33,779 bases of DNA from Chloroflexota bacterium (GCA_003670735.1 QWQU01000009.1:1-33779), one strand, 5' to 3'. Shown: positions 962 to 27,825, counted from the stretch's first letter. The notes: generated by a model not told the origin, from the letters alone. Numbers and translations: made by a program.

Positions 962-1115
962 GTCGGACGGCTCGGCTTGCGCCGAGGCCGGGGCGCGGGC
1001 GGCGTTGCCGCTTGTCGCGCCCGGACAGTATTTCGCCCACCCTCCCGCCCTTGAGCGGGGCTCCGCCCCGCGACCCCGCTGGGGCTTTGCCCCAGACCCC
1101 TCCCGGAATCCAGGC
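962..1115 (+). repeat. Structured intergenic repeat, copy 1
   Basis: GTCGGACGGCTCGGCTTGCGCCGAG, then an outer stem CCGGGGCGCG/CGCGCCCGG, inner GCGGC-GTT-GCCGC, core GGACAGTATTTCGCCCACCCTCCCGCCC, and hairpins GCGGGGCTCCGCCCCGC and TGGGGCTTTGCCCCA. Confidence 0.85.
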
Positions 1116-1162
1116 CGCGGATACCTCGAAATACGCGTCATCTCGAGAGAGCGAGGCTGCGT

Positions 1163-1786
1163 GTGACCTCGGACGTTCGGATTGAGAAGGTCGCGGCGTT
1201 TATCACTCGCGATGTCGAGGTAGGTGGGGTGTGGCAGCGAGAGCTGCTGGTGTTTCGGCATGCGAATCCGTTGGCGGGGGTGCAGGTGCCGGCGGGGACC
1301 GTTGATCCGCCTGAGTCGCCGCTCGCTGCGGTGATGCGGGAGGTGGCTGAGGAGGCGGGGCTGCTCGAGGTCGAGGTAGTCGGCGAGCCGGTGTTGGCAC
1401 GGCTCGAGCTGCTCGACGCGGAGTGGTACCTGACGTTGCACGGCGAGGGGCGCGCGATGCTGAGTGAGCACGACCTGGCGAGTCCGGTGGTGACGATTGT
1501 GCGGCGAGATGGCGATCGGGTGCTGCTCGGCGGTTCGAATCCTGATGGCTCGGCGGTGGAGTGGTGGGCGTCGGCCAGTGCGGTGACTCGCGACCTGCGG
1601 CGCTGGCTGTTTCATCTGCGCGCGACCGGGGATGTGCTCGATAGCTGGTCACGGGCGTTCGATCGGACGGAGCCGTGGTCGTTCTACTGGGTCGCCCTCG
1701 ATGCGCCGAGTCCGCTCGTGGGTGTGCAGTTCGGGTGGTTCGAGGAGATGCGCGAGCGGCTGGTTGCCGGGCGTGATGGCTCGTGA
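1163..1786 (+). CDS. NUDIX hydrolase
   Basis: Nudix box G(TVDPP)E(SPLAAVM)REVAEEAGL. GTG start. Confidence 0.85.
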   Translation: MTSDVRIEKVAAFITRDVEVGGVWQRELLVFRHANPLAGVQVPAGTVDPPESPLAAVMREVAEEAGLLEVEVVGEPVLARLELLDAEWYLTLHGEGRAMLSEHDLASPVVTIVRRDGDRVLLGGSNPDGSAVEWWASASAVTRDLRRWLFHLRATGDVLDSWSRAFDRTEPWSFYWVALDAPSPLVGVQFGWFEEMRERLVAGRDGS

Positions 1787-1793
1787 CTACCAT
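1764..1793 (+). promoter_or_regulatory. Putative sigma70-type promoter for the valS leader
   Basis: TTGCCG (1764-1769), 18 bp spacer, TACCAT (1788-1793). Predicted start near 1800-1801, at the leader peptide ATG. Confidence 0.5.
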
Positions 1794-1800
1794 CGAGGTG

Positions 1801-1836
1801 ATGACGGTATCTGTAGTAGTACGACGCGGCGGCTAG
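1801..1836 (+). CDS. Putative valine-rich leader peptide MTVSVVVRRGG
   Basis: ATG ACG GTA TCT GTA GTA GTA CGA CGC GGC GGC TAG: four valine codons among codons 3-7, all GTA, followed by an intrinsic terminator and valS. Confidence 0.7.
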   Translation: MTVSVVVRRGG

Positions 1837-1873
1837 CAGCCTCGAAACGTTTGAGGTGTGCGAGTCGCCAGTG

Positions 1874-1897
1874 CCCCGCCTAGCGGGGTTTTTCTTT
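1874..1897 (+). terminator. Intrinsic terminator in valS 5' region (probable attenuator)
   Basis: CCCCGC-CTA-GCGGGG followed by TTTTTCTTT, ending about 19 nt before the valS ATG. Confidence 0.8.
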
Positions 1898-1915
1898 GCT
1901 CGTGAGGACAGTGCG

Positions 1916-4654
1916 ATGACAACTGATACGGACAGCCAGCAGCCGACGGAGATGGCGACGGCGTATGAGCCCGCCTCGGTGGAGGAGGCGCTGTACACGT
2001 GGTGGGAGGCGAACGGGTACTTCCAGCCGTCGGGCAGTGGGAAGCCGTTCACGATCATCATGCCGCCGCCGAATGTGACGGGTGAGCTGCACGTCGGGCA
2101 CGCGCTGACGGTGTCGGTGGAGGACCTGCTGATCCGGTGGCACCGGATGCTGGGCGACGACACGCTCTGGCTGCCGGGCGTGGACCACGCGGCGATCGCG
2201 GTGCAGAACGTGGTCGAACGCGAGCTGCGGCGCGAGGGGATCGAGCGGCGCGAGATCGGTCGCGAGGAGTTCCTGAATCGCGTGTGGCAGTGGGTGGAGC
2301 GCACGCGCTCTGCGATCTCGCGGCAGCATCGACGGCTTGGTGCTTCGGCGGACTGGTCGCGCGAGCGGTTCACGATGGATGACGTGCCGCAGCAGGCGGT
2401 GCGGCAGACGTTCGTGCGATTGCACCAGGACGGACTGATCTATCGCGGGGTGCGCCTCGTGAACTGGTGCGTTGATTGCGGGACTGCGATCTCGGACCTC
2501 GAAGTTGAGCATGAGGATGAGGCGGGCTCGTTCTGGTACGTGCGCTATCCGGTGGTCGATGATCGGGATCAGCCGACGAGCGAGTACATCGTGATCGCGA
2601 CGACGCGGCCGGAGACGATTCCGGCTGACGCGGCGGTGGCGGTGCATCCGGAGGATCCTCGATACAGCGCGCTGATCGGCAAGCGGGTGCAGGTGCCGTC
2701 GAGCGATCGCGTGATTCCGATCATCGCGGATACGGCGGTGAGCATTGAAGGCGGATCGGGCGCGCTGAAGGTGACGCCGGGTCACGACCCGGTGGACTTC
2801 GAGATTGGGCAGCGGCACTCGCTGCCGATTCACACGGTGATCGGCTTCGACGGGAAGATGACGGCGGACGCCGGCGTGTACGAAGGCCTCGAACGATTCG
2901 AGGCGCGCACGAAGATCGTTGCGGACATCGAGGCGCGTGGTCTGCTCGAGAAGGTCGATCCGTACACGCACTCGATTGGGCACTGCCAGCGATCAGGGAC
3001 GATCGTGGAGCCGCTGTTGTCGGAGCAGTGGTTTGTGCGCGTGCGCCCTGAGGCGGGCTCGAACCAATACGACCTGGCCGGTGCTGCGATCGCGGCGGTC
3101 GAGGACGGTCGCATTCGGTTCATGCCGGAGCGCTTCGAGCGCACGTACATGCACTGGATGGAGAACATTCGCGACTGGACGATCTCACGGCAGATCTGGT
3201 GGGGGCACCGCATCCCGGTTTGGTACTGCGATGACTGCGGCGCGACGACGCTGCCGAGTCTCGACGATGTGATGGTCGATCCGACTGCATGCAGCGCGTG
3301 TGCATCCTCGAACGTGCGTCAGGACGAGGACACGCTCGACACGTGGTTCTCCTCGGGATTGTGGCCGCACTCGACGCTTGGTTGGCCGAACGCGGGCGCG
3401 CCTGACTTGAAGTACTACCCGACCAATGTGATGGAGACCGGGTACGACATCATCTTCTTCTGGGTGGCACGCATGATCATGCTGTCGCTCTACAACATGA
3501 ACGGCGTGGTGCCGTTCGAGACGGTGTACCTGCACGGCCTGGTGCGCGCGCCCGATGGACAGAAGATGTCGAAGTCGAAGGGCAACACCGTTGACCCGCT
3601 GCAGTCGATCGCGATGTATGGCACGGACGCGCTGCGCTATGCACTGATCTCGAGCACGTCGCCCGGGAATGATCAGCGGATCACTGATCAGCGACTCGAG
3701 GCGGGGCGCAACTTCGCGAACAAGCTGTGGAATGCATCGCGGTTCGTGATCTCGATGGTGCAGGGTATCGAGGATTTGGCCGACGACGACCTCGATGTGC
3801 CTGCGGCGGGTGCAGACATTCCGCTCGAGGATCGCTGGATCCTGTCGCGCACGGAGCACGTGGCGGCGAGCGTTGGTGATCTGCTCGAGAAGTTCGAACT
3901 TGGTGAAGCAGTGCGTCAGCTGCGCGACTTCTTCTGGGAGGAGTTCGCGGACTGGTACATCGAGGCGGCGAAGGTGCGTGTGCGTGAAGGCGACCGCACG
4001 CCGCTGCCGGTGCTGGTGCATGTGCTCGACCGCACGTTGCGGATGCTGCATCCCTCAATGCCGTACGTGACGGAGGAGATCTGGCAGCGACTCGTGTCGG
4101 TGCGTCCGGATCCGGCAGGTGCGCCTGCGCTGATCGTGGCGGCGTATCCGATCGCGGAGGAGGCGCGCTTCGACGATGCAGCGGAGCGCGAGTTCGCGGC
4201 GCTGCAGGACTTCGTGCGCGGCATTCGCAATGTGCGCGCGGAGAAGCGCGTCGAGGCGGCGAAGTGGGTGGAGTCGTACATCGTGGCCGGCGAGGTCGCT
4301 CCTGCGGCACAGGCATGGGCCGGCGCTATCGAGCAGCTCGCGCGGACTCGACCGTTGCATGTCGTGGTGACGGCCGATGAGGCGCCCTCGGAGGGTGTCG
4401 TGACGGCGGTGCTGCCGGTGGGGCGCGTGGTACTGCCACTCGGCGGGATGGTTGACGCGGCTGCGGAGCGCGTGCGGCTGGGCAAACAGATCTCGGAGGC
4501 TGAGGGTGTGGTGTCCTCGCTCGAGGCGAAGCTGGGGGATGCGAACTTCGCGTCTCGGGCGCCTGCGGCGATCGTGGCTAAGGAGCAGGAGCGGCTCGAT
4601 ACCGCTCGTGGTCGCCTCGAGGGTTTGCGGGAGTCGCTGGCCGAGCTGGCTTAG
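1916..4654 (+). CDS. valS: Valine--tRNA ligase
   Basis: ORF 1856..4654 trimmed to ATG 1916 because the terminator lies in the upstream extension. PPPNVTGELHVGHAL (HIGH), KMSKSKGN (KMSKS), C-terminal coiled arm. Confidence 0.95.
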   Translation: MTTDTDSQQPTEMATAYEPASVEEALYTWWEANGYFQPSGSGKPFTIIMPPPNVTGELHVGHALTVSVEDLLIRWHRMLGDDTLWLPGVDHAAIAVQNVVERELRREGIERREIGREEFLNRVWQWVERTRSAISRQHRRLGASADWSRERFTMDDVPQQAVRQTFVRLHQDGLIYRGVRLVNWCVDCGTAISDLEVEHEDEAGSFWYVRYPVVDDRDQPTSEYIVIATTRPETIPADAAVAVHPEDPRYSALIGKRVQVPSSDRVIPIIADTAVSIEGGSGALKVTPGHDPVDFEIGQRHSLPIHTVIGFDGKMTADAGVYEGLERFEARTKIVADIEARGLLEKVDPYTHSIGHCQRSGTIVEPLLSEQWFVRVRPEAGSNQYDLAGAAIAAVEDGRIRFMPERFERTYMHWMENIRDWTISRQIWWGHRIPVWYCDDCGATTLPSLDDVMVDPTACSACASSNVRQDEDTLDTWFSSGLWPHSTLGWPNAGAPDLKYYPTNVMETGYDIIFFWVARMIMLSLYNMNGVVPFETVYLHGLVRAPDGQKMSKSKGNTVDPLQSIAMYGTDALRYALISSTSPGNDQRITDQRLEAGRNFANKLWNASRFVISMVQGIEDLADDDLDVPAAGADIPLEDRWILSRTEHVAASVGDLLEKFELGEAVRQLRDFFWEEFADWYIEAAKVRVREGDRTPLPVLVHVLDRTLRMLHPSMPYVTEEIWQRLVSVRPDPAGAPALIVAAYPIAEEARFDDAAEREFAALQDFVRGIRNVRAEKRVEAAKWVESYIVAGEVAPAAQAWAGAIEQLARTRPLHVVVTADEAPSEGVVTAVLPVGRVVLPLGGMVDAAAERVRLGKQISEAEGVVSSLEAKLGDANFASRAPAAIVAKEQERLDTARGRLEGLRESLAELA

Positions 4655-4683
4655 CGAGTCGACCTCGATGGTTGGTGTTGTGG

Positions 4684-4714
4684 CGAGGCCCCGCGTGAGC
4701 GGGGCCTCGTTTTG
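4684..4714 (+). terminator. Intrinsic terminator after valS
   Basis: CGAGGCCCCGC-GTGA-GCGGGGCCTCG followed by TTTTGTGTG. Confidence 0.8.
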
Positions 4715-4742
4715 TGTGTGGCTAGTCGGGGTCGGAGCTGGG

Positions 4743-5246
4743 TTAGCGGTTCTTCAGGTACAGGGCCGTGTTGAGGGCCGTGGCGAAGGTGGTCCAGGCG
4801 AGGTAAGGGAGGAGGAGGGCGGCGGCGAGGGGGCGGACTCGATAGAAGCTGCGGATGGTGGCGGTGATGGCGACGAGCATCGAGAGGATGACGGCGAGGG
4901 CGAGGTCGATGCGCCTGGCGCCGAAGAAGATCGGGGACCAGGCGGCGTTGAGGCCAAGCTGGGCGGCGTAGATGGCGAGGGCTCGCTTCGTGTCATTCGA
5001 GGCGGGGGCGCCGGATGGGGTGCGGTCGGCGCGGTAGACGAGCCAGGCGGCGGTGCCCATGAGGGCGTAGAGGGCGGTCCAGACGGGGCCGAAGATCCAC
5101 GGGGGCGGGTTCCACTCGGGCTTGTCGAGGGTGCGGTACCAGCCGTTGACCGAATTACTCGTGAACCAGGCGCCAATGGCGCCGCCAAGGTTTGGCAGCA
5201 GGATCGACAGGCCCAGGGCGGCGGCGTCGCGGCGGGTGATTGGCAT
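4743..5246 (-). CDS. TspO/MBR family protein
   Basis: GGAIGAWFT...WYRTLDKPEWNPPPWIFGPVWTALYALMGTAAWLV...LNAAWSPIFFGARR. Confidence 0.9.
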   Translation of the reverse strand: MPITRRDAAALGLSILLPNLGGAIGAWFTSNSVNGWYRTLDKPEWNPPPWIFGPVWTALYALMGTAAWLVYRADRTPSGAPASNDTKRALAIYAAQLGLNAAWSPIFFGARRIDLALAVILSMLVAITATIRSFYRVRPLAAALLLPYLAWTTFATALNTALYLKNR

Positions 5247-5394
5247 GGAACCAGTGTCAGCGGGGCGGCAAGGCGGGTGTTGAGGCGATCTCGATACCTC
5301 CGGCGGGGTGTGACCTCTATCTCATCGGGGGCTGGAGGCGGAATCTCTGGGCGGGCACTCGGGGTGCCTCGAGGGATGCGTTGGGGAGGGCTCG

Positions 5395-5730
5395 ATGGCG
5401 ACGGTGGCGTTGTTGGTGGTCTCGAACACGTTCATGACGTTCGCCTGGTACGGGCATCTGAAGCATGGGAGCTGGCCGCTGTGGCTCGCGATCTTCGTGA
5501 GCTGGGGGATCGCGCTGGGGGAGTACTGCTTCCAGGTGCCGGCGAACCGGCTGGGGTACGGTCAGTTCACCGGTTATCAGCTGAAGATCATCCAGGAGGC
5601 GATCACGCTGGTCGTGTTCGTGGGATTCGCGGCGTTCTACCTCGGCGAGCCGCTGCGGTGGAACTACGTGGGGTCGTTCGCGTGCATCCTAGGCGCGGTG
5701 GTGTTTGCGTTCTGGGGGCGGGCTTCGTAG
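5395..5730 (+). CDS. DMT family (DUF486-type) membrane protein
   Basis: TFAWYGHLKH...SWGIALGEYCFQVPANRLGYGQFTGYQLKIIQEAITLVVF. Confidence 0.85.
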   Translation: MATVALLVVSNTFMTFAWYGHLKHGSWPLWLAIFVSWGIALGEYCFQVPANRLGYGQFTGYQLKIIQEAITLVVFVGFAAFYLGEPLRWNYVGSFACILGAVVFAFWGRAS

Positions 5731-5813
5731 CACATGCGAGCGTGCTCGAGAGATGCGTTTCGTGGTTGCTGGGGCCGCGATCGCAGGCCGTCCGTGCGGC
5801 ATTTCACGATTCG

Positions 5814-5842
5814 TTGACACTCACTAGAGGCGCTGCTACGGT
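5814..5842 (+). promoter_or_regulatory. Putative nuo operon promoter
   Basis: TTGACA (5814-5819), 17 bp spacer, TACGGT (5837-5842), upstream of the nuoA GTG. Hairpin AGCGCA-GGTT-TGCGCT lies in the inferred 5' UTR. Confidence 0.65.
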
Positions 5843-5918
5843 CAGTCCCGACTGAGCCAAGCGCAGGTTTGCGCTGGTTTCGCAGCCGTGTGCATAGGCA
5901 TTTGAAGGTACGGGGCGC

Positions 5919-6293
5919 GTGGAACACCTGGACCAACTGTTCGGGAACTACATCGCGGTGTTCCTCGCCACGATCGCCGGTTTCATCCTCGTTATCTCGG
6001 CGCTGGTCGGTAACCGACTGCTCGCACCGTTCTCGCAGGAGCGCTCCAAGGGCACCTCGTACGAGTGTGGCATGCTGCCGATCAAGCGCGCCCAGACGAA
6101 CGTGGGCATGCGCTTCTACCTGTACGCAATCCTGTTCATCATCTTCGACGTCGAGGCGGTCTTCATCTTCCCGTGGGCGCTCTCCTTCGTGGCCATTGGC
6201 CCGATGGCGTACTACGAGATGGTCCTGTTCGTCGGCATCCTTGCCGCCGGGCTCGCCTACGCGTGGAAGAAGGGAGCCCTGCGATGGCAGTAA
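5919..6293 (+). CDS. nuoA: NADH-quinone oxidoreductase subunit A
   Basis: [44 protein letters not shown]. Confidence 0.93.
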
Positions 6294-6913
6294 ACGTCAC
6301 TGAGACGGGCGTACCTGACGCTCCGGTCGTTGCTCCTGAGTCCCCGGCGATGCCGGGTGGCTTCCCGAGCCCGTTGCCGCTGGAGCACCCGAACGAGGCG
6401 GCTCGGCTGACCCCTGTTGAGGTCGTGCCGGGCAAGGCGCTGTACCGCGCGGTGCTCCCGGGCATCCTGCAGGTACCGGCGGACCTCGTGATTGCCGCTT
6501 CGCGGAAGTCGTCGCTCTGGCCGATGACGTTCGGCCTGGCGTGCTGCGCGATCGAGATGATCGCGACCTACATGTCCCACTACGACCTCGACCGTTTCGG
6601 GATTGTGCCGTGGCCGTCGCCGCGCCAGTCCGACGTGATGATCGTGGCCGGCACCGTGACCAAGAAGATGGCCCCAGCGGTGAAGCTCCTGTACGAACAG
6701 ATGCCGAACCCCAAGTGGGTGATCTCGATGGGCGCGTGCGCCACCAACGGCGGCCCGTACACGCGGTACGACCGCGTGGTGCAGGGCGTCGACAAGCTGA
6801 TTCCGGTCGACGTGTACGTGCCTGGCTGCCCGCCGCGCCCCGAGGCGCTGCTGGATGGCTTCCTGGCACTGCAGGAAAAGATCATGGAAGAGCGGGCGGC
6901 GACCGGACGATGA
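6284..6913 (+). CDS. nuoB: NADH-quinone oxidoreductase subunit B
   Basis: ATG 6284 overlaps the nuoA end. [19 protein letters not shown]...[18 protein letters not shown]...[15 protein letters not shown]. Confidence 0.95.
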
Positions 6914-7437
6914 CGACCGAAGGCGCGGCGCCGGAGCGAACGCTTTCCGGCACGATCTGGTCCGAAGTGGATCGTGCGCTCTCGGGCATCACTGCCTCCG
7001 CGGAGCGTGCTGTCCTCGATGTGATCGTGACGATTCCGCGCGATGAGGTGATTCGCGGGCTGAAGGCGCTGAAGGCTGATGAGGCCCTAGCGTTCGACTA
7101 CCTGCGCTGCCTGACCTGCGTCGACAACGAGGCGGACGGCATGGACGTCGTCTATCACCTCTACTCGACGGAGAAGCGTCACAACGTGACGGTGAAGGTG
7201 CACCTCGAAGCAAACGACCTGTTCGTGGACACGGCGACCACGGTGTGGCGTGCGGCGAACTGGTACGAGCGTGAAGCGGCCGAGATGTTCGGTGTGCGCT
7301 TCCGCGGTCATCCCGATCCTCGGACGCTGCTGATGCCCGAGGACATGACTGACACGTTCCCGCTGCGGAAAGACCACCCCCTGGCGGAGATCGAAGTGCT
7401 GCAGGGCGAGGGCATCGCCTGGGGCGTGGAGGAATAG
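6910..7437 (+). CDS. nuoC: NADH-quinone oxidoreductase subunit C
   Basis: ATGA overlap with nuo[42 protein letters not shown]. Confidence 0.93.
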
Positions 7438-7439
7438 CG

Positions 7440-11086: not shown

Positions 11087-11102
11087 TCGAGGGGGACTGC
11101 TG

Positions 11103-16049: not shown

Positions 16050-16082
16050 ACGAAGCCCCGCGCGAGCGGGGCTTCGTTTTGT
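16050..16082 (+). terminator. Intrinsic terminator after nuoN
   Basis: ACGAAGCCCCGC-GCGA-GCGGGGCTTCGT followed by TTTGTGTG. Confidence 0.85.
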
Positions 16083-16096
16083 GTGCGTGTGCTCGG

Positions 16097-16262
16097 CGTC
16101 GGACGGCTCGGCTGTCGCCGTGGCCGGGCGCGAGGGCCGCTGCGCGGCCGTGCTCACGCCGGACAGTATTTCGCCCGCCCTCCCGCCCATGTGAGGGGAC
16201 TTCGTCCCCTCGACCCCTAGCAGGGCTTTGCCCTGCACCCCTTCGGAGTGCGTGGCGCACTC
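16097..16262 (+). repeat. Structured intergenic repeat, copy 2
   Basis: GCGTCGGACGGCTCGGC; outer stem CCGGGCGCGAG/CTCACGCCGG; inner GGCCGC-TGC-GCGGCC; GGACAGTATTTCGCCCGCCCTCCCGCCC; hairpins GAGGGGACTTCGTCCCCTC and GCAGGGCTTTGCCCTGC. Confidence 0.85.
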
Positions 16263-16301
16263 GGGAGGCTGGTCGTTGATTTGTACTGTTCGATTGAGTG
16301 T

Positions 16302-16838
16302 TTAGTCCTCGGCGTTGGGGAGGGGGAGCGGGGCGGCGTTGGGGTCGAAGGATGCGGTCTGTGGGGGTTCGATGTCGGTGGGGTTGGTGGCGTTGTCGCG
16401 GGTGATGGAGTCGATGGGGATGGTGGTGGAGCGGAAGCCGATGCGGCGGTGGGTGCCGTCGCAGTAGGGGCGGTTCTCGCTGCCGCCGCAGCGGCAGAGG
16501 GCGAGGCGTGACTCTCGAATGATGGTCTCGCCGTTGGCGTCGGTGAGGTGGAGGTCACCTCGGACGACGAGCGGGCCGTCTTCGACGAGGACGATGGTTG
16601 TCGGATTCGAGGCGAGCTCGGTGCTGCCGTCGGGGCGGGTGTAGCGGAGCGCGCCAGTGGGGCAGTGCTCGATGGCGGCGGCGACGGTGTCAGCGTCGGC
16701 GCGGTCGAGGTGGATCCACGGGCGGTCGAGCGGGTTGAAGACGTCGGGCAGCGCGCGGATGCAGGCGGCGACATGCACGCAGCGCGATGAATCCCAGTGC
16801 ACCTCGATGTTGTCGTTCTTGTAGGTACGCGTGGTCAT
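16302..16838 (-). CDS. Divergent 4Fe-4S mono-cluster (Fer4_19-like) plus CDGSH iron-sulfur protein
   Basis: N-terminal CVHVAACIRALPDVFN...EHCPTGALRY; C-terminal LCRCGGSENRPYCDGTHRRIGF. SD GAGGAGG before ATG. Confidence 0.85.
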   Translation of the reverse strand: MTTRTYKNDNIEVHWDSSRCVHVAACIRALPDVFNPLDRPWIHLDRADADTVAAAIEHCPTGALRYTRPDGSTELASNPTTIVLVEDGPLVVRGDLHLTDANGETIIRESRLALCRCGGSENRPYCDGTHRRIGFRSTTIPIDSITRDNATNPTDIEPPQTASFDPNAAPLPLPNAED

Positions 16839-16950
16839 CTCGTCCTCCTCGTGGTGCGAGCAGTGGACCGCAACACTGCGGCTTTGCGGTCATCACAAAC
16901 GCCATCCGCAGTGGCCGTCACCAGGCGGCGGCTCGATATATGCTGAGCCC

Positions 16951-17360
16951 ATGACCGCACCGATCGAGATTCCGCGGCAATTTCTCGATGTTCCGTACAA
17001 CGGCGTGGTCATTCCCGGCTCCAGGCCCGTCGGCGATCTGTCGGCCGGCGCAAATTGCCAGGTCTTCGCCTACGCGATCCTGTCCCACTTCGGGATCGAC
17101 TTTCCGCCTCTGCGCTCAAGCGAACTGTGGACGGATACGACGGCTTCGGTTCAGGTCGACGGCGAACCGAGGCCGCTCGATCTCCTGCTCGTCAACCGAA
17201 CGTCCGACCCTTTCGGGCGCATGTCGGATTGTGCCTCGGCGACGGCTCGGTGATCCATCTCGCGAAGCACATCGGCAAGCCAGCTGTATGGCCACTGGAT
17301 CAGTTTGCTGCCTGGCCCGCCTATGGCGTCAGGATCGGAATCAAACGCCCGTTGCGCTGA
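16951..17360 (+). pseudogene. Frameshifted NlpC/P60-like protein
   Basis: First half in one frame (MTAPIEIPRQFLDVPYNGVV...GANCQVFAYAILSHFGIDFPPLRSSELW...LDLLLVNRTSDPFG); continuation HVGLCLGDGSVIHLAKHIGKPAVWPLDQFAAWPAYGVRIGIKRPLR in another. One missing G near 17215-17217 would restore it. Confidence 0.65.
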
Positions 17361-17434
17361 TCTCGATCGGCTCAGCTCAGGCCGCGACCTTCACCTTGTT
17401 GCCTTACGGCTCTTCGCCTTCCGGCTCCGTGAAT

Positions 17435-17500
17435 CGAGCACGGCTCGTCGATGCTCGCTGCGACGGCGCGTGTGAGCTGCTGGAGTTGGCAAGGTGCGGA
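17435..17500 (+). pseudogene. Decayed fragment resembling the C-terminus of the adjacent FAD monooxygenase
   Basis: About 37/49 nt identical to 18917-18965. RARLVDARCDGACEL vs RVRFVDARYDGVWEL. Confidence 0.55.
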
Positions 17501-17626
17501 CGATCGAGGGGTGGAGAGGACTCTCTCCATACTTAACTTATGACTCGTTGGGGGGCTTGCCGCAAGGCCCCAGTCGTGGCGCAGACTCGCCGGCTCGCGG
17601 GGTGCTGCGGAGCTGGAGGTCGCGTG

Positions 17627-19102
17627 ATGCGTACTGAACATGCGGTGGTGATTGCGGGTGGTGGGCCGACGGGGCTGATGCTGGCGGCGGAACTCGCGCT
17701 GGCGGGGGTGGATGCGGCGATCGTGGAGCGGCGCGAATCGCAGATGCTGGCGGGACAGCGAGCGGGCGGACTGCACGCTCGATCGATCGAGGTGCTGGAC
17801 CAGCGTGGGGTGGCGGAGCGGTTTCTATCGGCGGGGAAGACGATGCAGGCAGTGGGGTTCGCGCTGAACCCCCTCGACATCAGCGACTTCCCGACGCGGC
17901 ATCCGTATGTGCTGGCGCTGTGGCAGAACCACATCGAGCGCATCCTTGCGGAGTGGGTGACGGAGCTCGGCGTGCGGTTCTATCGCTCGACGGAGGTGGT
18001 GGGGTTCACACAGGACGATGGCGGTGTGGACATCGAGCTGTCGAGTGGTGACTCGTTGCAGGCGCAGTACCTCGTTGGTTGCGATGGCGGGCGGAGCTTC
18101 GTGCGGAAGCATGCGGGGATCGAGTTCCCCGGTTGGGATCCGTCGACGAGCTTCTTGCTGGCCGAGGTGGAGATGACGGAGGTGCCGCCGTCGGGGATTC
18201 AGCGCGATGCGGTCGAGGGGCTGCGCGGCGCGAGCCTGATGGATGACGGCGTGCACTATCGCGTGATGATCGAACAGCCGCCTGCGGGACTCTCGGATGA
18301 TCCGACGCTGGCTGATCTGAGCGCGAAGCTGATCGAGGTGTATGGCACTGACTTTGGTGTGCGCGATGCCGTGTGGATCACGCGGTTCACGGACATGTCG
18401 CGACAGGCGGCGACGTATCGGCAGGGACGCGTGCTGCTTGCTGGCGACGCGGCGCACATTCACTCACCGGCAGGCGGGCAGGGGCTGAACACCGGCGTGC
18501 AGGACGCGGTGAACCTCGGGTGGAAGTTGGCGCAGGTGGTGCGTGGCACGTCGCCGGAGTCGCTGCTCGACACATATCACGCGGAACGGCATCCAGTTGG
18601 TGCTCGTGTGTTGCGCAACACGATGGCGCAGACGGCGCTGAATCGCGGCGACGATCGGACGATGGCGTTGAACGAGACGATCGCGCAGTTCTTGAGCATG
18701 GATGAACCTCGACGACGGATTGCGGGAATGCTGTCGGCGCTGGATGTGCACTACGACCTGGGGTCGGGACATCCGTTGCTGGGGCGGCGCATGCCTGATC
18801 TCGATGTGGTGTTGAAGGACGGGCCGCGGCGTGTGTTCTCGTTGCTGCACGAGGCGCACGCGGTGGTGCTGCGCTTCGGTGTTGCGGGCGCGCTCGATGT
18901 GCGTGTGTGGGGGGATCGAGTGCGATTCGTTGATGCTCGATACGACGGGGTGTGGGAGTTGCCGGTGCTCGGTGCGGTGGCTGCGCCGAGTGCGGTGTTG
19001 ATTCGACCGGATGGGCATGTGGCGTGGGTGGACGAGGGCACTGACGTTGGATTGCGCGAGGCGCTCGAGCTGTGGTGCGGGGCGGCCGGCGAGGCTGCGT
19101 AA
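17627..19102 (+). CDS. FAD-dependent aromatic-ring hydroxylase family monooxygenase
   Basis: VVIAGGGPTGLMLAAELALAGVDAAIVERR (GxGxxG), YLVGCDGGRSFVRK (DG), GRVLLAGDAAHIHSPAGGQGLNTGVQDAVNLGWKLA (GD). Start trimmed to ATG 17627. Confidence 0.88.
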   Translation: MRTEHAVVIAGGGPTGLMLAAELALAGVDAAIVERRESQMLAGQRAGGLHARSIEVLDQRGVAERFLSAGKTMQAVGFALNPLDISDFPTRHPYVLALWQNHIERILAEWVTELGVRFYRSTEVVGFTQDDGGVDIELSSGDSLQAQYLVGCDGGRSFVRKHAGIEFPGWDPSTSFLLAEVEMTEVPPSGIQRDAVEGLRGASLMDDGVHYRVMIEQPPAGLSDDPTLADLSAKLIEVYGTDFGVRDAVWITRFTDMSRQAATYRQGRVLLAGDAAHIHSPAGGQGLNTGVQDAVNLGWKLAQVVRGTSPESLLDTYHAERHPVGARVLRNTMAQTALNRGDDRTMALNETIAQFLSMDEPRRRIAGMLSALDVHYDLGSGHPLLGRRMPDLDVVLKDGPRRVFSLLHEAHAVVLRFGVAGALDVRVWGDRVRFVDARYDGVWELPVLGAVAAPSAVLIRPDGHVAWVDEGTDVGLREALELWCGAAGEAA

Positions 19103-19120
19103 GCCTCGGTAGTGCGGTGT

Positions 19121-19380
19121 TCGTCGGACGGCTCGGCTTGCGCCGAGGCCGGGCGTCGGGCGGCTTTCAGCCGCGAGCCGACGCCGGACAGTGTTGAGCC
19201 CACCCTCCCACCCTTATGCGAGGGCTGCGCCCTCGCGCTCCTGCTTCGGAGGGGGCTTCGCCCTCCTCGATCCGCTTGGGACTTCGTGCGCTCGGCCTCG
19301 CAGAAGCGAAGCCCCCTCGAATCCATTCGGAACTTCATCCACTCGCGGTCGCAAGGGCGTCGCCCCCGCAACCTCGGAGG
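19121..19380 (+). repeat. Structured intergenic repeat, copy 3 (extended 3' part)
   Basis: CGTCGGACGGCTCGGCTTGCGCCGAG; outer stem CCGGGCGTCGG/CCGACGCCGG; inner GCGGCT-TTC-AGCCGC; GGACAGTGTTGAGCCCACCCTCCCACCC; GCGAGGGCTGCGCCCTCGC and further hairpins. Confidence 0.8.
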
Positions 19381-19479: not shown

Positions 19480-19504
19480 GGGTTGGTGCGTGGGGCTGCG
19501 GGAG

Positions 19505-20940: not shown

Positions 20941-20966
20941 AATGGCCCCGGTTGCCCGGGGCCATT
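20941..20966 (-). terminator. Hairpin terminator after upstream glnA
   Basis: AATGGCCCCGG-TTGC-CCGGGGCCATT, about 30 nt past the stop at 20996. Confidence 0.65.
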
Positions 20967-20995
20967 GGTGTTACTCGCAGGCCGTATCGGACGGC

Positions 20996-22420
20996 TTAGC
21001 CGTTGAAGTACAGCTCGTACTCGTACGGAGTCGGGCGGAGGCGCACTTCCTGAGCCTCTGCACGCTTCCACTCCAGCCAGGTGTCGATGACGTCCTGGGT
21101 GAAGACGCCGCCCTGGAGCAGGAACTCGTGGTCCTTCTCCAGCGCGTCGAGGGCCGCGTCGAGCGAACCGGGGACGGTCGGGATCTTGGCAGCTTCTTCG
21201 GCCGGGAGGTCGTAGATGTTGCGGTCGAGCGGGTCACCCGGGTCGATCTGCTTCTGGATGCCGTCGAGGCCAGCCATCAGCATCGCGCTGAACGCGAGGT
21301 ACGGGTTGCTGGTCGCGTCCGCCGGGCGGAACTCGATGCGCTTGGCCTTGGCCGACATCGAGTAGGTCGGGATGCGGACCGAAGCGGAGCGGTTACGCAT
21401 GGAGTACGCCAGGTTCACGGGCGCCTCGTAGTGCGGGACCAGTCGCTTGTACGAGTTGGTCGTCGGCGCCGCGAACGCGAGCACGGAGTGCGCGTGGCGG
21501 AGGAGACCACCGATGTACCAGCGAGCGGTCTGCGACAGGCCGGCGTACCCGTTGCTGTCGTAGAAGGTCGGCTCGCCGTTCTTCCACAGCGACTGGTGCG
21601 TGTGCATGCCGGTGCCGTTGTCGCCGTAGATCGGCTTCGCCATGAACGTGGCGACCTTGCCGTGCTTCTTGGCGATGTTGCGGGTGAAGTACTTGTACCA
21701 CTGGGCTCGGTCGGCCTGCTGCGTGAGCGTGCCGAAGAGCATGGCGAGCTCGCACTGACCAGCAGTGGCGACCTCGTGGTGGTGCAGCTCCATCTCGGCG
21801 CCGACGCTCTCAAGGGCGTCGACGATCTCGTTGCGGATCTCGACGAGGGTGTCGAACGGCGGGACGGGGGCGTAGCCCTCCTTGCCGGGGATCTTGAAGG
21901 CCATGTTGCCGCCAGTGGCGGACTCGTCACGGCCGGTGTTCCAGGCAGCCTCGACGGACTCGACGAAGTAGAAGGCCGTGTTCTGGCCCTGCTGGTAGCG
22001 GACGTCGTCGAAGAGGAAGAACTCCAGCTCCGGGCCCCAGAACGAGGTGTCCGCGATGCCAGTGGTCTTGAGGTAGGCCTCAGCCTTCTTCGCGATGTTG
22101 CGCGGGTCGCGGCTGTAGGGCTGGTGGGTCATCGGGTCGGCGACGTCGCAGATGAGGCTGAGCGTCGGCGTCGTGTAAACGGAGTCGATGGCCGCCGTGT
22201 CGAGGTCCGGCATGAGGAGCATGTCGGACTCGTGGATCTGCTGGAAGCCGCGGAAGCTCGAACCATCGAACCCGCTGCCTTCGGCGATGAGGTCGGCGTT
22301 GAGCCGGTGCGCCGGGAGCATGAAGTGCTGCCAACGGCCGAACAGGTCGGCGACCTTAAGGTCGACCTTGGTGACGCCGTTGGCCTTCACCATGTCGAGC
22401 GCTTCCTGGAGTGTGGTCAC
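20996..22420 (-). CDS. glnA: Type I glutamine synthetase
   Basis: Start set at GTG 22420 (SD GGGGAGG). LFGRWQHFMLPAHRL, GSGFDGSSFRGFQQIHESDM, HHHEVATAGQCELAM, FMAKPIYGDNGTGMHTHQSLW, RLVPHYEAPVNLAYSMRNRSA. Confidence 0.94.
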   Translation of the reverse strand: MTTLQEALDMVKANGVTKVDLKVADLFGRWQHFMLPAHRLNADLIAEGSGFDGSSFRGFQQIHESDMLLMPDLDTAAIDSVYTTPTLSLICDVADPMTHQPYSRDPRNIAKKAEAYLKTTGIADTSFWGPELEFFLFDDVRYQQGQNTAFYFVESVEAAWNTGRDESATGGNMAFKIPGKEGYAPVPPFDTLVEIRNEIVDALESVGAEMELHHHEVATAGQCELAMLFGTLTQQADRAQWYKYFTRNIAKKHGKVATFMAKPIYGDNGTGMHTHQSLWKNGEPTFYDSNGYAGLSQTARWYIGGLLRHAHSVLAFAAPTTNSYKRLVPHYEAPVNLAYSMRNRSASVRIPTYSMSAKAKRIEFRPADATSNPYLAFSAMLMAGLDGIQKQIDPGDPLDRNIYDLPAEEAAKIPTVPGSLDAALDALEKDHEFLLQGGVFTQDVIDTWLEWKRAEAQEVRLRPTPYEYELYFNG

Positions 22421-22559
22421 AGTGCCTCCCCTGCGTCCGCCAGCCGACGGATCGCCCGCAGTCCCTGAAATTGCCAAACAGAGGGCCTCAACAGTGGCCG
22501 CCCGATGGGCTGCCAGATTCTGCCTCGGCTCGTGTTACTGCGGAAGTTAATCCGGGGCG

Positions 22560-22597
22560 GTTTCCCTCGGATTACCTGTTTGTTACGAACACGTTTC
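22560..22597 (-). promoter_or_regulatory. GlnR-box-like array upstream of glnA
   Basis: Minus strand: GAAAC-N6-GTAAC-N6-GTAAT-N6-GAAAC, four pentamers at 11 bp spacing. Resembles actinobacterial GlnR GTnAC/GAAAC half-sites. Confidence 0.6.
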
Positions 22598-22648
22598 GAA
22601 GGTGGTTGATAACACCTGACGTACGGTGAAAGCGGGCAGAACTGCTCG

Positions 22649-23353
22649 TTACTGCTCGCCGAGGCTCATGTTCGGGCGGCCGGCACCGTCGTCGAGGAAG
22701 CGATAGCCCACGTTGCGGACCGTCTCGATGAACGGCTCATGACGTTCGATCTTGGCTCGGATACGGCGGATGTGAACGTCCACGGTACGAGAGCCGCCGT
22801 AGTAGTCGTAGCCCCAGACGCGGTTGAGGAGCGCCTCGCGGGTGAAGGGCTTGCCGGCGTTGGTCGCGAGGAAGCGGAGGAGCTCGTACTCCTTGTAGGT
22901 GAGGTCGACCGCGTCACCATCGACGCTGACGGTATAGCGCTCCAGGTCGATGGCGAGGCCGCCGCGACGGAGGACGTTGCCCTCGTCGGCGCCGGTGCGC
23001 ACCCAGAGCGCTCGGGACATGCGGACCTGGAGCTCTTCCGGGTCGGCGGGGGTGAGCATGAAGTCGTCGACTTTGACGCCGGCGCCGACGAGCGTGAGCT
23101 GCTCCCGGGTGGCGAAGAGGACGACACCGACGCGGTCAGCAATCTCGGAATCCCGCAGCACGGCAGCGAGGCCGCCCGGGGTGATGCCGATGCCGAGGTC
23201 GAGGCCGAGCAGTGCGGGACGCCACTCGCGGACGGCGAGCAGGCCAGCCTCCAGGTTCCGTTCGGAGCGGAAGGGGTGGCCGTTGGCGCGCGCAGCCATG
23301 TTCGCGGCCGTGATGACCTGCGGGTCGTCGCTGACCAGAAGAATGCGCTGCAT
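22649..23353 (-). CDS. GlnR-like orphan OmpR/PhoB-family response regulator
   Basis: C-terminal LTYKEYELLRFLATNAGKPFTREALLNRVWGYDYYGGSRTVDVHIRRIRAKI...IETVRNVGYRF. Atypical receiver with DDFMLTP where a Lys-Pro is expected. Start revised to ATG 23353. Confidence 0.8.
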   Translation of the reverse strand: MQRILLVSDDPQVITAANMAARANGHPFRSERNLEAGLLAVREWRPALLGLDLGIGITPGGLAAVLRDSEIADRVGVVLFATREQLTLVGAGVKVDDFMLTPADPEELQVRMSRALWVRTGADEGNVLRRGGLAIDLERYTVSVDGDAVDLTYKEYELLRFLATNAGKPFTREALLNRVWGYDYYGGSRTVDVHIRRIRAKIERHEPFIETVRNVGYRFLDDGAGRPNMSLGEQ

Positions 23354-23359
23354 CGCTGG

Positions 23360-23365
23360 ATTGTA
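23360..23365 (-). promoter_or_regulatory. -10 element TACAAT, 6 nt before the regulator ATG
   Basis: Minus strand TACAAT-CCAGCG-ATG. Confidence 0.5.
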
Positions 23366-23464
23366 GACCAGCACTCTGGGGCTGTCTCACGCTCGTGAGC
23401 GCGGGATGTTACGAATGGTGGCGAATTGGCAATCTGATCGGAACACGCATCGCGGAGCGAACGC

Positions 23465-23983
23465 ATGCCTGAGCTACGACTGACGAGCTGCACGTTGCGC
23501 CCGATCCGGCCGGGCGATGAGGACTCGATCGCGCGGTACGCAGACAACGTGCAGGTGTGGCGGAACGTGCTCGATCGCTTCCCGCATCCGTACACGCTCG
23601 AAGCCGCTCGGTCGTGGGTGGCGCACTGCCAGACGCACGAGCCGCAGACGCACAACTTCGGGATTGAGGTCGATGGCGCGATCGTGGGGATGATCGGCCT
23701 CGAGTCAGGGGCGGACGTGCACCGACGCTCGATGGAGATCGGGTACTGGCTGGGCGAGCCGTTCTGGGGTCGCGGGATCGCGACGGAGGCGGCCCGCGCG
23801 GTGACGGAGTACGCGTTCGCGACGTTCGACATCAATCGGGTGCAGGCATGGGTGTTCGGCTGGAACCCGGCTTCGGCGCGGGTGCTGGAGAAGGCCGGGT
23901 ACGTACTCGAGGGTCGGCATGTGGGGGCGGTGACGAAGGCGGGCGAGACGACGGACGAGCTGGCCTACGCGATCGTGCGCTGA
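23465..23983 (+). CDS. GNAT family N-acetyltransferase (RimJ/RimL type)
   Basis: LRPIRPGDEDSIARYADN...EIGYWLGEPFWGRGIATEAARAVTEYAF...NRVQAWVFGWNPASARVLEKAGYVLEG. Confidence 0.88.
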   Translation: MPELRLTSCTLRPIRPGDEDSIARYADNVQVWRNVLDRFPHPYTLEAARSWVAHCQTHEPQTHNFGIEVDGAIVGMIGLESGADVHRRSMEIGYWLGEPFWGRGIATEAARAVTEYAFATFDINRVQAWVFGWNPASARVLEKAGYVLEGRHVGAVTKAGETTDELAYAIVR

Positions 23984-23993
23984 GCTCGCGTCC

Positions 23994-24563
23994 TTACAGC
24001 TCTGCGTCGAGGCGCACTGGATAGACGTAGCCGACGAAGGGGTGCCAGATCCGCATGCGCACCTCCTCCCAGGTGAGCGTGGCGCGGTCGACACGGCCCC
24101 ATGCCGAGGTGCGGAAGCGCGTGGACCAGCCGCACATCTGCTGGCTCCAGTTCATCTCGGCGACCTCGATGCCCTCGGGCGTGACGCGCTCGACGTAGGC
24201 GACGTGGCCGGCACCGCCGGACCAGACCACGACTGCGCCGGGTCGCGCGGCGTGCAGATCGTCGACGACCACCCAGCCGGCCCAGGCGGCGTGGTTGGCC
24301 CACGTCCCGGCGTTGCCGCTCCAGTTCACGCCGGGCTCGGGGGCGCGCTCGTCGAAGCGGCGCGCAGCGTAGGTCGTGCACTGGCCGCCGCTGCCGGGGC
24401 GCGTGCTGGCGAAGCCCTTGTATGGGTCGAGGTCGCGGCCTTCGAGGCTGCACTCGTCCGTGGCACTGGCTCGTGCCGGCGAGAGCAGCGCGACTGGGGC
24501 GGCGACGGTCAGTGCGGCGAGGGCGCCGAGGAAGCTGCGTCGGTCGATGGTGGCCACGAGCAC
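23994..24563 (-). CDS. CHAP-like domain secreted protein with Tat-type signal
   Basis: RRSFLGALAALTVAAPVALLSPARASA; GGQCTTYAARRF...AWAGWVVVDDLHAARPGAVVVWSGGAGHVAYVERVTPEGIEVAEMNW. Confidence 0.78.
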   Translation of the reverse strand: MLVATIDRRSFLGALAALTVAAPVALLSPARASATDECSLEGRDLDPYKGFASTRPGSGGQCTTYAARRFDERAPEPGVNWSGNAGTWANHAAWAGWVVVDDLHAARPGAVVVWSGGAGHVAYVERVTPEGIEVAEMNWSQQMCGWSTRFRTSAWGRVDRATLTWEEVRMRIWHPFVGYVYPVRLDAEL

Positions 24564-24623
24564 TCCTCGTCTGCTGGGGGCGAAGGGCGCCCACCGTATC
24601 TGATCTGGCTGCGGCTGTGTGCT

Positions 24624-24815
24624 CGCCGGGACGGCTCGGCAGGCGCCGAGGCCGGGGCACGGGCGGCTCCTCGATGTCGCCCAGCACCATCTGCAGGTGG
24701 CTCGCCGCAGCCGTGCCGGACAGTGTTTCGCCCACCCGCCCGCCCTTATGCGAGGGCGAAGCCCTCGCGCTCCCTCCGGATTCCGCCGGCTTTGCCGCGG
24801 ATCGGAGGCTCCTCG
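24624..24815 (+). repeat. Structured intergenic repeat, copy 4 (expanded apical loop)
   Basis: GACGGCTCGGCAGGCGCCGAG; outer stem CCGGGGCACGG/CCGTGCCGG; inner GCGGC...GCCGC with long insert; GGACAGTGTTTCGCCCACCCGCCCGCCC; GCGAGGGCGAAGCCCTCGC. Confidence 0.8.
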
Positions 24816-25057
24816 GGCTACCTGTAGACGGATTACGGCGAGCTCGAGGGGCTGCGGGCGACCTCGGTGGGTGGTGGCGGCGGGCGGGAGGTCTGGCCCA
24901 AGGGGTGGTGGTAGGGGCGATTACAAGCACGAGATGCTGTGGATATCTCGCTCGCCGCAGGGTGCGGTGGGGGTGGTGAGGCTGCTATCCTTCCGCCTCG
25001 CCCACCCGGAACGGCAGCCCGGTCGCCTCACGGCCGCCCCGCCGAGGGAGTCTCCTC

Positions 25058-26134
25058 ATGCAAGTTGTCGAAGCTACCGATCTCACGAAGATCTACCAGA
25101 ACAAGTACATCGCGCTGAACGCGATGAACCTGAACATCGAAAAAGGCATGGTCTACGGCCTGGTTGGGCCGAACGGTGCCGGCAAGTCCACGACGTTCCG
25201 CGTGATGATGGGCCTACAGCGCCCGACCGCGGGGAGCATCAAGGTTTTTGGCGAGGAGATGGACCCGGAGCGGTCCGACCTGCGCCGACGAATCGGCTTC
25301 CTGCCCACCAACCCGAGCTTCCCTCGCAACCTGACGCCGATCTCGTACCTCGAGTTCATCGGGTCGCTGATGGGGATCCCGACCGACCGAACGAAGATTC
25401 GCCTCGCGACGCTGTTGCAGGCGGTGGACCTCACGGGGGCGGCCTCGCAGCGCATCGATGGGCTGTCGACCGGTATGGTGACGCGCCTTGGGATCGCGGC
25501 GGCGCTGATGGGTGACCCGGAGCTGCTGATCCTCGATGAGCCGACGTCTGGCCTCGACCCGTCCGGCCGCAAGCAGACGATCGAGCTGATCCGTGAGCTG
25601 TCGGGTCGTGACCGCACGATCATCATCGCGACGCACATCCTCGGCGACGTCGAGCGGGTGTGCACCGACGTGGGGATCATCTCGGGCGGCCGACTGATCT
25701 ACACGGGGCCGATGTCGGAGATGCGCCGCCTGGCGCGCCACGGCACGGTGACCGTGGAGATCGAGGGCAACACCAATGCATTCGAGCAGCAGGTGCCACT
25801 GCTGGATGAGCTGGGATCGGTGACGTACGAGCGGACGGGTGCGGAGTTCCACATCTCGTTCCTTGGTACGGAGGCGCTGCCGGTATACATCCACCGTGTG
25901 TTGGACCTGATCGACCGCACGGGGGTCGACCTGCTGCACTTCAACACGGGCGAAGACGAAATCGAAGAGGCGTTCCTGCGCCGCCTAGAGGAGGACAGCA
26001 CGCGCGGCTTCCTGCGGGCGTCGGCGTGGGCGGCGGCGCAGCGAATCGGCGGTGGGCCGGAGACGCTGGCGCTGCCGGAAGCGACGTCTGAGGAGACTGT
26101 GGATGCAGGCGTTTCTGGTACTCCTTCGGTATGA
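25058..26134 (+). CDS. ABC transporter ATP-binding protein
   Basis: Walker A GPNGAGKST, signature-region LSTGMVTRLGIAAALMGDPELLILDEPTSGLDP, H-loop ATHILGDVERVCTDVGII. Confidence 0.93.
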   Translation: MQVVEATDLTKIYQNKYIALNAMNLNIEKGMVYGLVGPNGAGKSTTFRVMMGLQRPTAGSIKVFGEEMDPERSDLRRRIGFLPTNPSFPRNLTPISYLEFIGSLMGIPTDRTKIRLATLLQAVDLTGAASQRIDGLSTGMVTRLGIAAALMGDPELLILDEPTSGLDPSGRKQTIELIRELSGRDRTIIIATHILGDVERVCTDVGIISGGRLIYTGPMSEMRRLARHGTVTVEIEGNTNAFEQQVPLLDELGSVTYERTGAEFHISFLGTEALPVYIHRVLDLIDRTGVDLLHFNTGEDEIEEAFLRRLEEDSTRGFLRASAWAAAQRIGGGPETLALPEATSEETVDAGVSGTPSV

Positions 26135-26819
26135 CCTCGACCAGATGGCGCGGTCCTGGATCGTTCGCGTCTGGGTCGCGCTGCTGATCATTGGGGCCGG
26201 TGTCCTGGTGAGCATCGCGGCGACGAACTCGGAGCTGGCATCGGAGACGATGGCGGCGTACCAGTACGCGGTGTTCGCGCCGCTGTCGTGGCTGGCCGTA
26301 TCGATCTTCGCCGCCTCGGCGATCTCGGGTGAGGCCGGCGTGATGGCCGATGCGATCCTCTCGAAGTCGGTGAATCGCACGCAGTACCTGAGTGCCAAGG
26401 TGGTGTCGCGGATCGGTGCGACGCTGATCGTGTACGTACTGGTGACGGTTCCGCTGGCGTATCTGCTCGGCCGCTACGCGGTGGCGGACACCACGATCAG
26501 CGGACTGTTTGTCGGGCTACTGCTGGTGGCGATGATGGTGTCGTTCCTTGCGGCGCTCGGCATTCTGCTGTCGACGGTGTTCCGCAATGTGCAGCTCGCG
26601 ATCCTCGCGGTGATGGTGACGGTGCTGTTTTCCGGTGCGGTGCTGCAGTTCCTCGGTCTGACGTGGATGTCTACGACGGCGATCCTGAACGAGCTGCCCA
26701 CGACGTTCCGAGGCGAGACGCCGCTGTGGAATGTGTTTCGCGCGATCATCGTGTTTGGGGCGCTGACGGTCGCCTCGATCTCCGCGTCGCTGTACGTGTT
26801 CCGCATGAAGGACCTCTAG
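26103..26819 (+). CDS. ABC-2 type transporter permease
   Basis: ORF trimmed to ATG 26103. Hydrophobic multi-span protein overlapping the ATPase end. Confidence 0.82.
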   Translation: MQAFLVLLRYDLDQMARSWIVRVWVALLIIGAGVLVSIAATNSELASETMAAYQYAVFAPLSWLAVSIFAASAISGEAGVMADAILSKSVNRTQYLSAKVVSRIGATLIVYVLVTVPLAYLLGRYAVADTTISGLFVGLLLVAMMVSFLAALGILLSTVFRNVQLAILAVMVTVLFSGAVLQFLGLTWMSTTAILNELPTTFRGETPLWNVFRAIIVFGALTVASISASLYVFRMKDL

Positions 26820-26934
26820 GCGCCTTCGGCGCTTCTCGCCCAGCTTCTTGTGTCGCGGGTTCGTGACTCGAGGCTTCTTGGGTGCGCGAGCCAGCAAGGA
26901 GATGCGGGCTCGCAGCGCGCGGTAGCATCGAGTC

Positions 26935-27252
26935 ATGCATATCGGCTCGATGCTCAGCTCTACAGACGAGGCGGTTGAACTCGGAACATACGGCGGTCGC
27001 GTCGTGCGTGGCGTGGTGCGTCGTCGCTCGCTGCGCTTCGGGCTCGGCGAGCGGCTGCGGCTGAACCTGCAGCAGCTTTCGCCTGTCGCTGTCGAGGTGG
27101 ACGGGGAGCGCACTCGCATTCACTCGATGGATCCGCGCACGCGTCTGCTGTTGCAGCGGGCGTTGCTGGTGCTCGTAGTGTCGATGGTGGTGCCGCGACT
27201 GCTCGCGCGACGACATCGAGGTGCGCCTGCGGCACAACGGAGGTCTGGATGA
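26935..27252 (+). CDS. Small hypothetical protein with C-terminal hydrophobic segment
   Basis: MHIGSMLSSTDEAVELGTYGGRV...LLLQRALLVLVVSMVVPRLLARR; ATG preceded by TAGCAT-N6; overlaps the next gene. Confidence 0.55.
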   Translation: MHIGSMLSSTDEAVELGTYGGRVVRGVVRRRSLRFGLGERLRLNLQQLSPVAVEVDGERTRIHSMDPRTRLLLQRALLVLVVSMVVPRLLARRHRGAPAAQRRSG

Positions 27253-27641
27253 ACTCGACGGATGGGATGAGTGCGATGGGTGCACTGGCGTCGTTGCCGG
27301 AGCGCGCGTCGGCGGCCTCTGTGTTTGGTGAGCCGGCGACGGCGGGTGACCGGGTGGTGATTCCGGTGGCCGAGGTGATGATTGCGATGGGTGCGGGATG
27401 GGGCGGTGGCAATACAACTGAGCCGACGGCCACGAGTGTGCCGGTGGCGCCCGCTGCTGGCTCAGGTGGTGGCGTCGGTGGTTGGGGGCGCGCTCGGGGC
27501 ATTGCGGTGATCGAGCTGGGGCCGGATGGGGTGCAGGTGCATCCGATCGTGGACCAGACGGCGATCTCGCTCGCGGGAATCGCGTTGGCGGGGGCGGTGT
27601 TGGCGCTCGTGGCACAGGTGACGAAGAAGCTGATTCGCTAG
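27249..27641 (+). CDS. GerW/YtfJ-like family protein
   Basis: VFGEPATAGDRVVIPVAEVMIAMGAGWGGG...Gly-rich...ARGIAVIELGPDGVQVHPI, matching the YtfJ pattern, with a C-terminal TM segment. Confidence 0.7.
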   Translation: MNSTDGMSAMGALASLPERASAASVFGEPATAGDRVVIPVAEVMIAMGAGWGGGNTTEPTATSVPVAPAAGSGGGVGGWGRARGIAVIELGPDGVQVHPIVDQTAISLAGIALAGAVLALVAQVTKKLIR

Positions 27642-27667
27642 GTGGTTGCTGCGCGACGAGTGCGCGC

Positions 27668-27825
27668 TGTCGGACGGCTCGGCTGTGCCGAGGCCGGGCG
27701 CGAGGGCCGCTGTGCGGCCGGACTCGCGCCGAACTGAATTGAACCCACCCTCCCACCCTATGAGGGGACTTCGTCCCCTCGCCCCTAGCAGGGGCTGCGC
27801 CCCTGCACCCTCGGAGTCGCCTCGA
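27668..27825 (+). repeat. Structured intergenic repeat, copy 5
   Basis: TGTCGGACGGCTCGGCTGTGCCGAG; outer stem GGGCGCGAG/CTCGCGCC; inner GGCCGC-TGT-GCGGCC; GAACTGAATTGAACCCACCCTCCCACCC; GAGGGGACTTCGTCCCCTC; GCAGGGGCTGCGCCCCTGC. Confidence 0.85.

Follow-up and report, generated by a model that had tools for sequence, protein, structure and literature searches.

The window analysed here, a 33,779-nucleotide stretch from a Chloroflexota bacterium (GCA_003670735.1 QWQU01000009.1:1-33779), carries five copies of a structured intergenic element. Each unit consists of one or more left hairpins, a (CCCN)4 tract and a right hairpin, and the stems diverge in sequence among copies yet stay paired. Here and in the genomes of related uncultured Chloroflexota the elements take a near-constant direction relative to replication, a pattern suggesting that they are placed or kept by replication itself. 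The original prediction had put five elements on the plus strand, and all were found at the places it named; it caught the structure but missed both the G-quadruplex (G4)-type core and the replication polarity. For copy 3 it identified a real site, but the end it gave, 19380, takes in flanking sequence outside the common unit. The copies and their parts are listed below with matches to a covariance model built from the five window elements.

962..1076 (+): copy 1, between a MOSC-domain gene (+) and a NUDIX gene (+); model match 959-1077, 108.9 bits
1036..1050 (+): (CCCN)4 tract of copy 1; minus strand GGGNGGGNGGGNGGG
1055..1071 (+): right hairpin of copy 1, GCGGGGC-TCC-GCCCCGC, read from the sequence
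16098..16216 (+): copy 2, between a nuoN-like gene (+) and a convergent gene (-); model match 16095-16217, 119.3 bits
16174..16188 (+): (CCCN)4 tract of copy 2
16193..16211 (+): right hairpin of copy 2, GAGGGGAC-TTC-GTCCCCTC, read from the sequence
19123..19241 (+): copy 3, between a FAD monooxygenase gene (+) and a convergent gene (-); model match 19120-19242, 127.1 bits
19199..19213 (+): (CCCN)4 tract of copy 3
19218..19236 (+): right hairpin of copy 3, GCGAGGGC-TGC-GCCCTCGC, read from the sequence
24624..24773 (+): copy 4, whose inner stem holds an insert; flanking genes divergent; model match 24623-24774, 95.4 bits
24731..24745 (+): (CCCN)4 tract of copy 4
24750..24768 (+): right hairpin of copy 4, GCGAGGGC-GAA-GCCCTCGC, read from the sequence
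27669..27785 (+): copy 5, flanked by a YtfJ-like gene (+) and a convergent gene (-); model match 27666-27786, 124.8 bits; site empty in two congeners
27744..27758 (+): (CCCN)4 tract of copy 5
27762..27780 (+): right hairpin of copy 5, GAGGGGAC-TTC-GTCCCCTC, read from the sequence
16051..16083 (+): intrinsic-terminator-like hairpin CGAAGCCCCGC-GCGA-GCGGGGCTTCG followed by TTTTGTG, upstream of copy 2 and outside the element; read directly from the sequence and absent from the list of a consensus terminator scan

Covarying stems and the (CCCN)4 core

Read along its C-rich strand (C-strand), the element starts with GTCGGACGG, the hairpin CTCGGC/GCCGAG and a two-part stem that varies in sequence among copies. 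The middle is formed by AGTATTTCG or a similar sequence, the tract CCCNCCCNCCCNCCC and TTATG or similar; a hairpin of ~8 bp follows, then CTCC or ACCCC and often more hairpins. The first block that had been proposed as conserved, GTCGGACGGCTCGGC, is exact in copies 1, 2, 3 and 5 (0.01 expected), whereas copy 4 has GCCGGGACGGCTCGGC. The hairpin CTCGGC-loop-GCCGAG does belong to the common layout, but its version in copy 2 has one mismatch (CTCGGC/GCCGTG). Both the extra G on the 5′ arm of the outer stem and the C-A mismatch in the outer stem of copy 2 were confirmed.

A covariance model search for further copies had been set beforehand as a test. In the 1.36-Mb assembly that contains the window (the own genome, G000; 77% complete) it returned 14 copies (E 9e-22 to 7.6e-6) and one decayed fragment. 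Five of the own-genome copies lie on the window contig (C84), four on C12 and three on C56, the remainder being on C45 and C67. In the alignment of all 14, which was fitted to the model and therefore leans towards structure, 95.6% of structure cells are paired, well above the 77.9% of shuffled sequence, and slid partners pair in just 37–48% of cells. Changes on both sides affect 23 of the 29 pairs (8.3 in shuffles), and the covariation score was reached by 0 of 500 shuffles. This strong covariation backs the earlier argument that stem changes that keep pairing reflect selected structure. Three short own-genome copies have a different stem in place of the left module; the constant unit is therefore stem – tract – hairpin. 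Two copies (L071:778-923 and L072:1105-1235) carry internal tandem duplications inside stems, an expected outcome of slippage at hairpins. Comparison of the window with Rfam, also proposed beforehand, gave nothing above the gathering threshold and, at a permissive limit, weak chance matches at copy 3 alone; phage records contain no match to the element.

The segment originally described as an unpaired pyrimidine-rich core is indeed unpaired and C-rich, but it is really a (CCCN)4 tract, with CCCNCCCNCCCNCCC in all five copies. Each element contains one such site and the rest of the window none, giving five sites where 0.07 would be expected; elsewhere in the own assembly the sequence is confined to these elements except for one poly-C run. 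The tract is conserved while unpaired: all four C-triplets are kept in 8 of 9 copies outside the model-building set. Its minus strand, GGGNGGGNGGGNGGG, is a perfect G4 motif with one-base loops. In an RNA energy model that includes G-quadruplexes, and hence as a prediction for RNA, the G-strand gains 17–31 kcal/mol with a quadruplex while the flanking hairpins are kept, so that the tract is predicted to be able to form a G-quadruplex on the minus strand. Triplex pairing of the C-tract with a hairpin, of the TMECO type, was rejected because the hairpin arms change (GCGAGGGC, GAGGGGAC, AAGGGGGC) while the tract stays constant.

Orientation relative to replication and gene context

To relate orientation to replication, we took GC skew over 8 kb on each side with the elements masked, measuring the own genome on separate stretches. 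The C-strand lies on the locally G-rich strand in 59 of 60 strict copies from four genera (G000 13/13, G003 25/25, G004 6/6, G005 15/16). Copies that share a contig are not independent, so counts were also made per contig segment; 34 of 35 segments follow the skew, and all strict copies within one segment point the same way in the four family genomes. Where |skew| exceeds 0.05, agreement is complete (49/49). Gene direction fails to explain this polarity because the G-rich strand carries just 57% of genes; it was rejected as the cause also on the evidence of neighbourhoods coded mainly on the opposite strand, where 28 of 28 copies still follow the skew.

On contig C67 the skew changes sign, turning from minus to plus next to parB, parA, jag and yidC, the usual surroundings of oriC, and we therefore infer that the G-rich strand is the leading strand. 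An element a few kilobases past the flip, 4 kb from the oriC-type region, follows it, with both flanking genes on the opposite strand. Every own-genome copy lies in strongly skewed parts (median |skew| 0.145 versus 0.05 in element-free contigs, p = 5e-9), a confinement that may reflect origin proximity. Near 43–45 kb of contig C12 (L071) the skew also flips from minus to plus, with no origin genes among those scanned, possibly through rearrangement or misassembly.

A second abundant palindromic repeat, of the CCGTTCGTGGTGAGCC / GGGCGAACGG type, fills intergenic gaps in G003 (L218-L231, for example L221 near 7360 and 8890); the compact gaps compared in the sister genome G031 do not contain it. 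It too is polar with respect to GC skew, at about 84%; part of the polarity may thus be general to repeats in these genomes.

Gene context was taken from calls made with a simple codon-bias script on incomplete assemblies. Strict copies are intergenic in 58 of 60 cases. For 56 intergenic copies the genes on both sides were called: convergent gaps hold 20 of these (8.5 expected) and gaps that run in the direction of the element hold 23 (20.9 expected), while nine copies are antisense to both neighbours (15.8 expected) and four fall in divergent gaps (10.8 expected). This distribution fits promoter avoidance, as in repetitive extragenic palindromic sequences (REPs), combined with fixed orientation. 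A same-strand gene precedes 43 of 57 copies; within the window, the claim that four of five copies lie downstream of a plus-strand stop codon holds, the exception being copy 4, between divergent genes. An integron attC array was rejected, as long housekeeping operons (nuo, valS) lie between the copies.

Copies in relatives and site turnover

Metagenome-assembled genomes of the same family, of Dehalococcoidia type, contain elements with the layout hairpin – (CCCN)4 – hairpin. A second model, R2, covers the tract and right hairpin, in which 6 of 8 pairs have changed on both sides. It matched 40 times in G005, 28 in G003, 21 in G032, 13 in G004 and three in G001, and found zero copies in G002 and many other family genomes. 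Copy number is very uneven among close relatives, with 0, 3 and 14 in the genomes of one genus and 0 and 28 in those of another. The unit of G003 and G005 measures ~75 bp and runs GGACG, short hairpin with a TCC loop, GGGGA or GTTA, (CCCN)4, T/C-rich spacer, GCGAGGGGC hairpin and GCTCC. A pattern scan of named genomes returned matching contigs in JADLFF01 (Dehalococcoidia bacterium SJ354), VGPB01 (Chloroflexi bacterium K_Offshore_80m_m2_170) and CAMDBZ01, a genome labelled Thermoflexus; these are probably G003, G005 and G032. The host of the window is accordingly assumed to belong to a Dehalococcoidia-related lineage of Chloroflexota.

In G061, from another class of the phylum, a (CCCN)-type tract and hairpin lie ~10 nt past stop codons (for example L158, L162, L164 and L165), the tracts often reading AAGAGGAAGG-CCCGCCC. 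Their polarity is weaker (12/15), and they were not counted as the same family.

Gene order in the window is largely kept in two congeners, G001 and G002, at 70–83% identity. The site of copy 1 was left out of the comparison, as gene order there is rearranged in G001; the sites of copies 2, 3, 4 and 5 lack the element in both congeners (4/4). The YtfJ-like gene and its convergent neighbour almost abut in G002, whereas in the window they are separated by 233 nt that include copy 5. Copies 2 and 3 form direct repeats around a ~3–3.5 kb stretch with the FAD monooxygenase gene (window 16098-19241); the stretch between them is missing in G002, where nuoN directly precedes the far-side gene. Within window 23495-24815, copy 4 adjoins two genes, one for a GNAT acetyltransferase, that neither congener has at the syntenic position. 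Conversely, G001 has a degenerate element of its own, oriented the same way relative to replication, in a gap that is without one in the window. In a second genus, three of three clear G003 sites are closed up in the sister genome G031, and a fourth stretch has a different gene. Gain in the carrier is a simpler account than loss.

Proposed mode of spread

Short interspersed repeats are common in bacteria, and we know of no established mode of spread for most of them. In the present family replication polarity is near-absolute, sites turn over at the species level and no driver is known, so that replication-coupled spread becomes directly testable; the family also assigns a strong G-quadruplex motif to one particular strand of replication.

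The copies in relatives, intergenic placement and site turnover back the earlier suggestion of a repeat resembling REPs or miniature inverted-repeat transposable elements (MITEs). Like GTAG/CGTC-tagged REPs with their RAYT transposases (PMC3733652, PMC6006769), the elements are short, palindromic and intergenic, lie preferentially 3′ of genes and vary between close species. Unlike REPs, which form head-to-head dimers, they occur as single units, keep to one fixed orientation and contain a (CCCN)4 core, and they have neither a RAYT gene in the carriers nor a constant tetranucleotide tag: by a loose pattern, GT[AG]G stands 0–2 nt before the hairpin in 1/13 copies of G000, 2/16 of G005, 3/6 of G004 and 11/25 of G003. 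The long terminal inverted repeat of MITEs was not seen in the copies, and target-site duplications are unreadable at 70–84% identity. The rPQS of Methanomicrobiaceae (PMC8044849) and TMECO of E. coli (PMC4666352) are likewise repeated intergenic motifs, capable of forming quadruplexes or triplexes, beside a complementary tract and often between convergent genes. Their orientation is unbiased relative to genes, with no replication polarity reported, whereas here a G4 motif with one-base loops sits between independent covarying hairpins. Polarity is shared with IS200/IS605 elements and their non-autonomous derivatives, which have hairpins near the ends and an orientation that mirrors replication direction (PMC5371812), as in 59 of the 60 copies here; they differ in having a Y1 transposase, which was not found in the carriers.

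With moderate confidence, we interpret the family as REP/MITE-type interspersed repeats, ~75–150 bp long and non-autonomous, whose insertion is strand-specific, coupled to replication and carried out by an enzyme acting in trans. For IS200/IS605 elements the lagging-strand template is the site of both excision and insertion (PMC5371812, PMC6006769), and the combination of turnover with a similarly strand-locked orientation favours single-strand, replication-coupled insertion by a putative trans-acting enzyme. If the G-rich strand is leading, the C-strand with its hairpins would be exposed in the lagging-strand template, where it would be free of G4 and its hairpins able to form, and the G4 motif would fall on the leading-strand template. 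Insertion would probably depend on a trans-supplied enzyme that recognises the hairpins while the DNA is single-stranded at the fork and joins the unit into the lagging-strand template, which would fix its orientation as for IS200/IS605. Copies landing in promoters would be lost, leaving mostly those at gene 3′ ends. More tentatively, the family could be a new class of mobile repeat locked to one replication strand, in which a hairpin stands on each side of a G4/i-motif core; the enzyme moving it would then be something other than a Y1 transposase or a reverse transcriptase and would work on lagging-strand template DNA only.

Several observations weigh against replication-coupled insertion. 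No carrier genome with full copies has a Y1 transposase: PF01797 (RAYT/Y1) is absent from G000–G005 and G032 and present in 4 of 44 family genomes (assemblies incomplete), of which G017 alone has core matches, and weak ones. One reverse transcriptase was found among the carriers, in G003 only, and both enzymes were rejected as resident drivers. An exact insertion junction or target motif is unreadable because relatives are just 70–84% identical; copies within one genome have diverged, which leaves recent movement unsupported, and the empty sites could partly be losses. Strict conservation of the C-tract suggests a role beyond selfish spread.

That conservation would be accounted for by the main alternative, which we consider less likely: a polar functional chromosomal site, read one way by a DNA-tracking protein or the fork, whose orientation selection keeps while sites move. 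Candidates would be a KOPS/AIMS-like motif, a polar fork barrier or a lagging-strand priming site. The near-absolute polarity, the four C-triplets kept in 8 of 9 copies outside the model-building set and the own-genome restriction to the most skewed parts, with one copy close to the oriC-type region, all agree with such a site. Low and very uneven copy number does not, and single sites are not conserved, unlike those of a needed chromosomal signal. KOPS and AIMS share the replication-strand polarity (PMC5993296) but are 8-base sequences, whereas the family here is a 75–150 bp structured element with few copies and fast turnover.

Enrichment after same-strand genes and in convergent gaps, together with strong stem covariation, would suit a structured 3′ untranslated region (UTR) RNA or a transcription terminator or decay module made from the plus strand, as the original prediction had also proposed. 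We judge this improbable. Thirteen of 56 copies are antisense to both neighbours or lie between divergent genes, and orientation tracks the replication strand and not genes, even amid opposite-strand coding. No T-run, and thus no U-run in RNA, follows the right hairpin in any copy; the terminator scan lists none at copies 2–5, those it covered, and copy 2 lies beyond the intrinsic-terminator-like hairpin at 16051..16083. Least probable is strand tolerance alone, that is, random insertion with purging of G4 motifs from the lagging-strand template. In all but one copy the G4 does lie on the C-rich strand and so avoids what is presumed to be the lagging-strand template, but the remaining G4 motifs of these segments are mostly biased the opposite way (G-rich to other strand, G003 53:7, G004 34:1, G000 17:8), the exception being intergenic ones in G005 (5:16).

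Elsewhere in the window, the leader before valS (1795-1900) gave no Rfam T-box match; at its end, just upstream of the gene, GCCCCGCCTAGCGGGGTTTTTC forms a terminator-like hairpin, an arrangement seen in attenuated synthetase genes.

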